Shown piece after piece: positions 14,530-31,928 of a stretch of DNA of 45,816 bases. Both the position numbers and the translations under genes were made by a program. Where the stretch lies: contig JACQWV010000019.1 in the NCBI GenBank assembly GCA_016209085.1, positions 1 to 45,816 on the forward strand, written 5' to 3'. Every line of letters starts with the position of its first letter. Position 1 is the stretch's first letter. The notes beneath the pieces are model-generated. The model was not told the origin of the DNA. It made no database searches and worked only from the letters and a program-made list of their open reading frames with translations. The stretch comes from Elusimicrobiota bacterium (GTDB taxonomy: Bacteria; Elusimicrobiota; Elusimicrobia; Elusimicrobiales; UBA9959).

Positions 14530-14572
14530 TCCTTTACCTCGTATCCCGTGTTAGGCTATTTTTTACACTTAT

Positions 14573-14622
14573 GACTTGTGACATGTAACTTCCATGTCAT
14601 GTCGGCGTAGGTGTCTTGTGAC
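14573..14622. repeat. Inverted copies of the GTCACAAG word (CTTGTGAC x2)
   Basis: GACTTGTGAC 14573-14582 and CTTGTGAC 14615-14622. Confidence 0.7.
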
Positions 14623-17208: not shown

Positions 17209-17760
17209 TTAAAGTAATTTAATCTCATCACTAATGCCAAGAACAGATGCCCATTTTTCCATGTATTTTGTATCCAGCATCCCCTTGTTCAACTCCATTA
17301 TACTGCGGCAATCCTGCAACTGGCGTTCGGAACCGCCGGCGGATTTCATCCAGCGGAGTTTTGACAGCACAAGATCCTCCGCTGTTATCACCCAGAGCGG
17401 CTGACCGGCAAGTTCAAACTCTTTACGTCTTGAGAAACTTTCCTTCTGATAGGGTTTAGTGTCATCAAGAACCGCAAAATCAACTTTAAAAACAGTGGCG
17501 TTAAAAATTACATTAAACATCCGCTTTTCAGAAACAGCCAGCCTGACGTCATCTTCGTCTATATAGGACTCGTCTTTTACCGCTGCGATCAGTTCCGGAA
17601 TACGGGAAGGAGAAATTTGAACAACAATATCTATGTCCATAGTGGTTCTAACATGCCCCCAAAAGGAAAGAGCAGAACCGCCGGTAACCATATACGCTAT
17701 GCCCAGTTTATCTAATTTTGCAGATATCCATGCTAATGTTTCAAGGAATATATTTTGCAC
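17209..17760 (-). CDS. Nucleotidyltransferase-fold protein (AbiEii/MNT-like)
   Basis: YMVTGGSALSFWGHVRTTMDIDIVVQIS, FKVDFAVLDD, ITAEDLVLSKLRW. Confidence 0.7.
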   Translation of the reverse strand: MQNIFLETLAWISAKLDKLGIAYMVTGGSALSFWGHVRTTMDIDIVVQISPSRIPELIAAVKDESYIDEDDVRLAVSEKRMFNVIFNATVFKVDFAVLDDTKPYQKESFSRRKEFELAGQPLWVITAEDLVLSKLRWMKSAGGSERQLQDCRSIMELNKGMLDTKYMEKWASVLGISDEIKLL

Positions 17761-18511: not shown

Positions 18512-19402
18512 TTATATCAAATGTTCTCCGTATCGGGGGCCTTTTCCGGATAATCTTGCAACTGCTGTTTTAAGACCCCGCTCAAGCATTACCTGAGTCA
18601 TGTGAATTCTGTATTCTTTGCTTGACCTTATGTCAGTTATGGGGCTTATTTCTTTTACTATGAGATTTTTAGCCTCGTCAATCGCCGCATCATAAATTTC
18701 TTTGCCGTTCAAAAATGCCTCTGTCTTCACACAGCGTTCGGGTTTCGGGCCGAGAGCGCAGGCCGCTATTTTGTATTTATTGTCCATGAAAGCAAGAACA
18801 GCAATGCCTCCCTGAGCAAGGTCTTCGCCTTCATATCTTGACATTTTGACATAACATCCCGCGTGTCGTTTTTGAGGTAGGGGGATTTCAACTGAAATAA
18901 CGATTTCGTCCGCTCTGAGAACGGTTTTTTTAGGACCTGCAAACCACTTGTTAACGGGTATTTTCCTGACAGCTTTTAAATTTCTCGCGCAGACAACTGC
19001 TTCATAAACCAGCAGGGCAGGCGCAGAATCAGCTGAAGGCACTGCCGAACACAAATTGCCCGCAATCGTGGCCCTGTTTCTTACTCCGACAGAAGCCACA
19101 GTGTTTGCCGTTTCCCATAACAGCGGAAACCTGGTTTTAACAATTTTTGATTCCAGCAAATCAGTAAAAGTCGCAAGGGCTCCTATTGAAAGAATATTGT
19201 TTTTAAACTCAATCCTGTCCAATCCCGGTATTCCTTTTATATCCACGACTATATCAGGCTTTTCGGTTTCATCTTTCAGTTTGACGACTAAATCTGTTCC
19301 ACCAGACAGGATTTTCGCTTTTTCCCTGTTTTTTGAGAGGATTTTCAGGCCTTCTGCTAAAGTTTTCGGTTTCACATATTCAAATTCAGTTATAATAGGC
19401 AT
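18512..19402 (-). CDS. FAD-binding subunit of the Mo hydroxylase (CoxM/XdhB-type)
   Basis: KILSGGTDLVVKLKD and VRNRATIAGNLCSAVPSADSAP motifs. Confidence 0.93.
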   Translation of the reverse strand: MPIITEFEYVKPKTLAEGLKILSKNREKAKILSGGTDLVVKLKDETEKPDIVVDIKGIPGLDRIEFKNNILSIGALATFTDLLESKIVKTRFPLLWETANTVASVGVRNRATIAGNLCSAVPSADSAPALLVYEAVVCARNLKAVRKIPVNKWFAGPKKTVLRADEIVISVEIPLPQKRHAGCYVKMSRYEGEDLAQGGIAVLAFMDNKYKIAACALGPKPERCVKTEAFLNGKEIYDAAIDEAKNLIVKEISPITDIRSSKEYRIHMTQVMLERGLKTAVARLSGKGPRYGEHLI

Positions 19403-19423
19403 AATTTACCTCCGGTAAAATAT

Positions 19424-19452
19424 GTCTCAAGTTACAAGTCTCAAGTCGCAAG
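19424..19452. repeat. Left arm of inverted word repeat flanking the four-helix-bundle gene
   Basis: GTCTCAAGTTACAAGTCTCAAGTCGCAAG; 23/29 identical to the reverse complement of 19870-19898. Confidence 0.7.
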
Positions 19453-19514
19453 CAAAAGTGAAAAAATCTCCTGTAACGCAAGTAACAGAAAAAATTTTGA
19501 AGCGCGGTTTATGG

Positions 19515-19868
19515 CTATAAACTTTTATAAAAACCCCATAATAATTTACCTGTCTCACGCCGTAAAGATTCAAGAGTTGAAAAATCTTCCTCGCTTAAAT
19601 ATCCTATATCTTTGCAAAATTCAAGCAGATATTCAGTTTCAGCGAGAGAACCAAGAGCTATATTCGCGAAGTGTTTTAATTCTTTGCGACCTTGCCGCCC
19701 CGTCCCTTCAACAATATTCACAGGGACTGACAAAACCGCTCTTCTCAATTGGTTTGTAATTCCGTAAATTTCATCTTTTGGAAAACGGACGGTTTCCTTA
19801 TAAACAGCCTTTGCCAAAGCATCCGCTTTTTTCCAAACTTCCAAATTTTTATATCCTTTATTTTCCAT
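19515..19868 (-). CDS. Four-helix-bundle (S23/IVP-type) protein
   Basis: YKNLEVWKKADALAKAVYKETVRFPKDEIYGITNQLRRAVLSVPVNIVEGTGR. Confidence 0.9.
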   Translation of the reverse strand: MENKGYKNLEVWKKADALAKAVYKETVRFPKDEIYGITNQLRRAVLSVPVNIVEGTGRQGRKELKHFANIALGSLAETEYLLEFCKDIGYLSEEDFSTLESLRRETGKLLWGFYKSL

Positions 19869-19869
19869 A

Positions 19870-19898
19870 CTTGAAACCTGAGACTTGAGACCTGAGAC
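19870..19898. repeat. Right arm of inverted word repeat flanking the four-helix-bundle gene
   Basis: CTTGAAACCTGAGACTTGAGACCTGAGAC, abutting the start of the 19868 gene and the stop of the cyclase gene. Confidence 0.7.
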
Positions 19899-20713
19899 TA
19901 TTTATCTGTCCACGCTACTATACGGCACATGGAAGATTCAAGCTCCATTCCCTTAAGCGGGAAACATCCTATCCAGCATCTTTTGTTTGAAAGTCTTTCT
20001 ATTTCTCCGCCTATGTTCTCAGCGTGCACCATGCGCTTCGGGAAAAGTTTTAAGTGCATTACCTGATAATATTCTTCAAGAGGGAAGAACTCGTCCCATT
20101 TTTTGCCGTATTTTGAGAAAAGCTTTTTCTCTGCTTCAATAAAAAGTTTCGGGTGCCAAGTCCTTATGATTGTATTCATGGGATGGTCGGCAGAACCGCA
20201 GTCAACTCCTATCCATTTGAATTTCATCGCGAGCGCCCACTTGTGAAAAGCGGGACCCGGGCCCGGATGTTTTACGAAATACCTGACCTCGTCGGATTCT
20301 TTTTCATACCACGCGTACCTGTGATAGCCGGTATTTATTATAAGTATGTCGCCTTTTCTGATGTCCGCTTTTCTTTTCAGTAAATCAGGCTCGTATAAAT
20401 CATAATCTCCCGTTTCTTTTGAAATGTCAACCACGACTCCCGGTCCGACCCATTCTTTCATAGGCACCTGTCCTATGGTTCTGCCCGAGCCGAAGAAATG
20501 TATTTCCCCGTCCATGTGGGTTCCGACATGGTTTGATGTTGTTATTATCTGGCCGTTCGCGCCCTGTCCCATGTGAGCGCCGGCTATGCGCTTGAAATAC
20601 TGGACCTGCAATGGCACGTAACTCGGCCAGGGCGGGGTATGAACGCTCAACGGCTGGGTCAAATCGTACATTTTTACCTTATTCATGAACCTGATGAAAT
20701 CATTGGGTTTCAT
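19898..20713 (-). CDS. Cyclase-family (PF04199-type) metal-dependent hydrolase
   Basis: SNHVGTHMDGEIHFF matches the HxGTHxDxxxH metal-binding motif; DILIINTGY, GVDCGSADHP. Confidence 0.88.
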   Translation of the reverse strand: MKPNDFIRFMNKVKMYDLTQPLSVHTPPWPSYVPLQVQYFKRIAGAHMGQGANGQIITTSNHVGTHMDGEIHFFGSGRTIGQVPMKEWVGPGVVVDISKETGDYDLYEPDLLKRKADIRKGDILIINTGYHRYAWYEKESDEVRYFVKHPGPGPAFHKWALAMKFKWIGVDCGSADHPMNTIIRTWHPKLFIEAEKKLFSKYGKKWDEFFPLEEYYQVMHLKLFPKRMVHAENIGGEIERLSNKRCWIGCFPLKGMELESSMCRIVAWTDK

Positions 20714-31879: not shown

Positions 31880-31928
31880 ACTGCAGTGGTTTATTGACTA
31901 TTCGCTATTTACTATTTGCTATTCACTG

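Follow-up and report, generated by a model that had tools for sequence, protein, structure and literature searches.

The DNA analysed here, referred to as the window, is a 45,816-nucleotide stretch of an Elusimicrobiota genome that carries a catabolic operon on its minus strand. A putative cyclase gene (PF04199, 19898–20713) is followed by an S23/IVP four-helix-bundle gene (19515–19868, 117 amino acids, pI 8.6), a FAD-binding CO-dehydrogenase-type flavoprotein gene (PF00941/PF03450, 18512–19402) and, next after it, a [2Fe-2S] subunit gene (PF01799, 18001–18504), all on the minus strand; besides the cyclase, the operon neighbours are subunits of an enzyme of the CO-dehydrogenase type, namely the flavoprotein, iron-sulphur and molybdopterin ones. 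An AbiEii/DUF6036-like nucleotidyltransferase lies within the same operon at 17209–17760. In profile searches the S23 reading frame scored 122.2 bits against PF05635 (cut-off 33.8, residues 7–111) and 112.5 bits against TIGR02436 (cut-off 24). It is a member of the S23/23S rRNA IVP protein family and, as the first-pass annotation had described it, a free-standing gene within a catabolic operon. The closest solved S23 structure is 2gsc (XCC0516, which we take from its locus name to be a Xanthomonas campestris protein), and 2rld is a further relative in the PDB. S23/IVP proteins have solved structures and, to our knowledge, no known function.

The S23 gene is bracketed by two arms. The left arm (19424–19452, plus strand, 3′ in the gene sense) reads as four tandem heptads, GTCTCAA, GTTACAA, GTCTCAA and GTCGCAA, followed by a G; the right arm (19870–19898, minus strand, 5′ in the gene sense) reads GTCTCAG, GTCTCAA, GTCTCAG and GTTTCAA, again followed by a G. 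A repeat search of the window recovered the inverted repeat that had been noticed in the first reading, with 29-nt arms, 79% complementarity (23/29) and a separation of 417 nt. Because each arm consists of four tandem heptads, GTCTCAA-like and pointing inwards on both sides, the bracket consists of two heptad arrays in inverted orientation and is not a unique inverted repeat. The outermost G of the right arm is the final base of the cyclase stop codon TAG (19900–19898), a contact that had been stated correctly, while the distance from the arm to the ATG, given earlier as 2 nt, is a single base (19869). The whole element, of about 475 nt, has the form heptad array, S23 reading frame, inverted heptad array, with S23 as its only reading frame, and sits between the cyclase stop codon and the next operon gene with its ribosome-binding site. 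In the minimum free energy fold of the element as RNA (19418–19905, minus strand; −138.1 kcal/mol, z −3.98) the arms are predicted to pair with each other, forming a terminal stem that encloses the gene. The repeat is beyond chance, with five period-7 arrays in the window compared with no comparable ones in ten Markov shuffles of it. The window also contains an ORF-less heptad hairpin of the GAATTTT type (42–121) and a single array of the AATAGTC type (31889–31928).

The bracket is a general feature of S23 genes. A bracket score was defined as the best local alignment between the 220 nt upstream and the reverse complement of the 220 nt downstream, and was applied to 116 S23 genes from the source genome, its relatives and 80 GTDB loci of many phyla. 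Scores of at least 22, 26 and 30 were reached by 84, 73 and 65% of these genes, as against 6.9, 1.8 and 1.0% of randomly paired flanks from different S23 genes, 19, 14 and 9% of the same flanks in direct orientation, and 10, 3.3 and 2.4% of 795 other reading frames of the same loci, a set in which three or more of the high scorers are unmasked S23 genes. For a further 22 S23 genes, newly drawn from eight organisms, the counts at the three thresholds were 22/22, 19/22 and 16/22. The first-pass annotation had named S23 flanks without inverted repeats as an observation that would speak against a cassette; brackets were found at most of the other S23 genes, a clear one being absent at about a quarter of S23 genes, some of them degraded.

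Nine S23 matches were found in the source genome, one of which is a broken fragment. On inspection by eye, almost all are flanked by inverted tandem arrays, the gene at locus L006 having an array on one side only, and the word is distinct at each of the nine (AGTGNNT, AGTCTNG, AGTAACC, GAATTNT and ACGAAAT among them). GTCTCAA as a conserved cassette signal is therefore rejected, and the GTC(A/T)CAAG-type word suggested as a general signal gives way to a 7- or 8-mer of its own for each element lineage. What is conserved is the grammar, inverted tandem 7-mers, or sometimes 8-mers, at both ends; the word first noticed in the window is accidental, since each S23 gene of this genome has its own, and the grammar is not. 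Among 85 bracketed elements the period of the arm pairs is 7 in 66 and 8 in 17, and the pooled arm identity is 0.478 at lag 7 compared with 0.25–0.33 at other lags up to 13. The period is at best a weak clade trait, with ten changes for 13 period-8 members. Bracketed elements (n=85) have a median span of 480 nt, the arms start a median of 2 nt past the upstream stop codon, and the S23 proteins are basic (median pI 8.8). At one locus (L008; G000 C35:2345–2644) an S23 element is found at the 3′ end of what reads, by eye, as nuoK; the last codons of this gene are apparently replaced by heptad array sequence ahead of nuoL.

The arms follow the protein. Arm words are held in common by 87% of S23 pairs that are at least 75% identical and by about 2% of pairs below 55% identity; a control in the opposite orientation, with reverse-complemented arms, was flat, without trend with protein identity, and a Mantel test of arm words against S23 protein gave 0 of 500 permutations. 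Among pairs at least 60% identical that have no common neighbouring gene, the arms are still common to 27 of 89. Arm-sharing pairs join Elusimicrobia and Omnitrophota, WOR-3 and Nitrospinota, Nitrospinota and Planctomycetota, and Paludibacter and Spartobacteria, with the caution that most sampled genomes are MAGs and that single cross-phylum cases may stem from misbinned contigs. In the S23 tree the phyla are intermixed, and the nine genes of the source genome are scattered over it. Since similar words accompany S23 genes that are close relatives but lie at unrelated sites, even in other phyla, the comparison indicates that arms and gene travel together.

About 30 genomes of the family were examined at the junction between the cyclase and flavoprotein genes. 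The junction holds an S23 gene of the window type in three genera (G000, G004 and G031; 80–81% identical) and an unrelated S23 gene (40% identity) in a fourth, G009. In G010, G032, G002 and others it holds heptad hairpins that have no ORF and are built of other words. Many more relatives have a bare junction of 27–68 nt, in some of them containing a plain GC hairpin; these are the empty sites that the first-pass annotation had proposed to look for. In G026 an orphan right arm remains. G031, G010, G002 and G004 independently have other S23 elements at the neighbouring flavoprotein/[2Fe-2S] junction, where G032 has a hairpin without an ORF. The proposal of a cassette is strongly supported for S23 by the bracketing of most S23 genes, by these polymorphic sites and by the joint travel of arms and gene. 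S23 genes are in sense to both neighbours at 77 of 102 loci and antisense to both at four. No target-site duplication was recognised on comparing filled with empty junctions, the flanks of which have diverged. Two details of these junctions were noted in passing. In G004 (L219, about 2600–2900) the orthologous S23 element has an upstream arm amplified about fivefold as a higher-order repeat of about 50 bp, and its downstream arm is likewise duplicated. In G026 (L209) the flavoprotein/[2Fe-2S] junction, of about 800 nt, has by eye apparent short open frames instead of S23, one of them nucleotidyltransferase-like.

Heptad arrays also occur without a reading frame: words of the S23 arms recur elsewhere in the source genome as ORF-less hairpins, and such hairpins are more numerous than S23 elements. 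The occurrence of the window word at cassette-free sites had been listed beforehand as a possible objection, and this applies in part: genome-wide the word is found many times, in 115 overlapping three-heptad matches, while the reversed pattern is found 0 times. In 381 kb of the source genome there are 83 period-7 arrays, compared with 6 after shuffling most of it, and in G010 an inverted partner lies within 110 nt for 54 of 127 arrays, compared with about 1% of random 35-mers. Array density is 11–26 per 100 kb in five relatives with S23 and 0–7 in five without, measured largely at a distance from S23 genes, with the G000 stretches partly chosen for arrays; across the phylum the densities are 13 and 4.9, respectively, over a Markov background near 2. 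Two genomes without S23 (G076 and G078) clearly have arrays, and the association of heptad load with S23 is real, not absolute. The arms of the window element match ORF-less arrays of their own genome in 22.6% of cases, compared with 3.3% and 0% in two relatives, a figure that is biased by sampled contigs partly chosen for containing the window word and is not relied on.

The anatomy of the element resembles that of the intervening sequences (IVSs) of 23S rRNA genes. The IVS of Coxiella burnetii, of 428–444 nt, has an S23 reading frame, a 28-bp terminal stem and, near the S23 start, three tandem heptamers, GACAGAT, the copy number of which differs among strains (PMC4990558). The window element shares the S23 reading frame, tandem heptamers near its start, a similar length (475 nt) and terminal inverted repeats closing a stem, in which the 29-nt arms are paired in the predicted fold, and its predicted folding energy of −138 kcal/mol is close to the −143 kcal/mol of the Coxiella IVS (PMC4990558). 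It differs in that it lies between operon protein genes, here those of the cyclase and the flavoprotein, and not in 23S rRNA, and in that S23 elements are present in many copies with many heptad words. No Rfam match was found within 19300–20000. REPINs with RAYT transposases combine dispersed hairpins made of inverted repeat pairs with a protein-coding full version, and in this the S23 elements are alike; in contrast, S23 is the sole gene inside the repeat pair, in place of a Y1-family transposase, and the words, unlike REPs, are not palindromic. The element encodes no transposase and shows no target-site duplication, unlike an insertion sequence or MITE. An integron gene cassette has a single attC, unlike the inverted arrays on both sides of the S23 gene. 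The Avd protein of diversity-generating retroelements belongs to the same four-helix-bundle superfamily; the S23 protein of the window scored 29.2 bits against the Avd profile NF033474 (cut-off 80) and 24.2 bits against the bAvd profile (cut-off 40), which does not place it in such a retroelement.

Taken together, these comparisons make it probable that the window feature is a free-standing S23 element with the anatomy of a 23S rRNA IVS, that is, a mobile hairpin cassette, and the S23 gene of the window is apparently one copy of a widespread mobile cassette of about 480 bases. All of the evidence on mobility is comparative, movement itself not having been observed. A cassette of this kind, having no promoter of its own, would be expressed in the operon mRNA, where the arms would pair into a long stem and RNase III may excise the segment by analogy with rRNA IVSs. 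The basic S23 protein, as an oligomer, could bind the arms of its element, in the form of RNA or single-stranded DNA, and help arm copying or insertion in trans, in which case the ORF-less hairpins would be non-autonomous offspring. The catalytic enzyme, being absent from the element, would be supplied from outside it. The source genome has Y1-type transposases (nine Y1_Tnp matches, all outside the element); they were found in 8 of 8 relatives with S23 and also in 3 of 13 without, a difference confounded by kinship. A reverse transcriptase as helper is rejected for the source genome, in which, at 98% completeness and with nine S23 matches, no match to PF00078 was found. Among arm mismatches G-U and A-C pairs number 162 and 136 (p=0.15), so that selection on the arms as a sense-strand RNA stem is not supported, the G-U excess being missing; because this test is negative, the ends may matter as DNA. 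No relative was found among 2.9 million viral contigs with a query that detects close relatives only, which gives no indication of phage spread.

Several other explanations bear on the same observations. The heptad hairpins might have come before the gene, as a REP-like intercistronic repeat of the host that spreads by other means and in the loops of which S23 lands or persists. This would account for the excess of ORF-less hairpins over S23 elements, for the presence of some hairpin, including plain GC ones without heptads, at the orthologous junction of many relatives, and for heptads in some S23-free genomes; we nevertheless consider it unlikely, since arm words track the S23 lineage over sites and phyla, heptad load tracks S23 presence, and other small genes of the same genomes are found outside such loops (0 of 23 ORF6N genes within them). 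It is improbable that the arrays are iteron-like operator sites through which a resident, immobile S23 gene controls its own mRNA. Such control would predict neither the inverted copy past the stop codon, nor presence, absence and replacement by an unrelated S23 at one junction, nor the many ORF-less copies, even if it agrees with an arm ending beside the start codon, with the covariation of word and protein and with the basic character of S23.

Spread at the RNA level only, by reverse transcription of an excised IVS with a reverse transcriptase acting in trans, would be in keeping with the terminal stem, the sense orientation in operons and the kinship of S23 with Avd, weak as the bAvd score is relative to its cut-off; the missing PF00078 match and the stems without G-U bias make it very improbable. 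Intergenic heptad microsatellites that arose by polymerase slippage, and lie beside S23 by coincidence, would yield direct and not inverted arrays on the two sides, and would leave unexplained both the words that track protein lineage and the brackets at 73% of S23 genes compared with 2–3% in controls. We find this hardly credible, despite the over-representation of heptameric repeats in many bacteria (PMC4692102, PMC4679880) and the strain-variable heptamer copy number of Coxiella (PMC4990558).

With the mobile hairpin cassette as the preferred reading, the question arises whether S23 is its only cargo. The first-pass annotation had extended the same bracket logic to ORF6N. As a second cargo ORF6N is rejected: a score of 26 was reached by none of the 23 ORF6N genes scored in this bacterial family, and that of the window scored 19, with a single GTCACAA-type heptad array upstream (14562–14594) and no matching array downstream. 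The idea of more than one cargo survives in another gene, GxxExxY/PDDEXK_3 (PF13366), at which an inverted tandem-array bracket was found in 6 of 8 stretches at a score of 22 (L365, L367, L368, L370, L371 and L096) and in 4 of 8 at 30, the sample being small and one of the eight stretches being the second piece of a broken gene. The GxxExxY words have longer periods (GGCGCAAAG and CACGAAAG, for example), and GATTACACA is a further arm word. This suggests that the bracket architecture is not limited to S23. Tentatively, and with rather less assurance than for the window element itself, we propose that these elements form an unrecognised class of protein-assisted mobile hairpin cassettes across bacteria, in which a small nucleic-acid-binding protein (S23 or, separately, the nuclease-like GxxExxY) would be carried between inverted arrays and recognise their 7- to 9-mer word, which is specific to the lineage. 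The long-known orphan heptanucleotide repeats would then be the ORF-less offspring of these cassettes.

Heptanucleotide repeats have been the subject of separate reports, organism by organism, for decades, and we know of no agreed cause. The S23–heptad link joins the proteins of rRNA intervening sequences with these orphan 7-base repeats into a system that is testable, the word being predictable from the flanks, and suggests a much larger family of elements living in operons, of which the rRNA intervening sequences are the part seen so far. No such link was found in searches of the open-access literature. The TAACTGA repeats of marine Beggiatoaceae are similarly dispersed, intergenic heptanucleotide direct repeats, but differ in being mostly direct and upstream of starts, and S23 is absent from the text of that paper (PMC4679880). 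Xanthomonas campestris has 186 heptad repeats of the GGGAATC word; convergent pairs occur in 70 cases, and the distance to the ORF that precedes them is about 28 nt. These and the GGGGA(C/T)T repeats of Nostoc are like the S23 arms in being intergenic tandem heptads in convergent pairs near the upstream stop, and unlike them in that they are described, in the sections consulted, as G-quadruplex repeats without a link to S23 or mobility (PMC4692102). A search of 399 Pseudomonadota genomes for (GGGAATC)3 alone gave three genomes with hits, two of which have an S23 gene. In both of these GGGAATC-rich genomes the only S23 gene (L333 and L334) is bracketed by inverted GGGATTC or GGGAATC arrays and, as read from the translated flanks, sits in the accB–accC junction.
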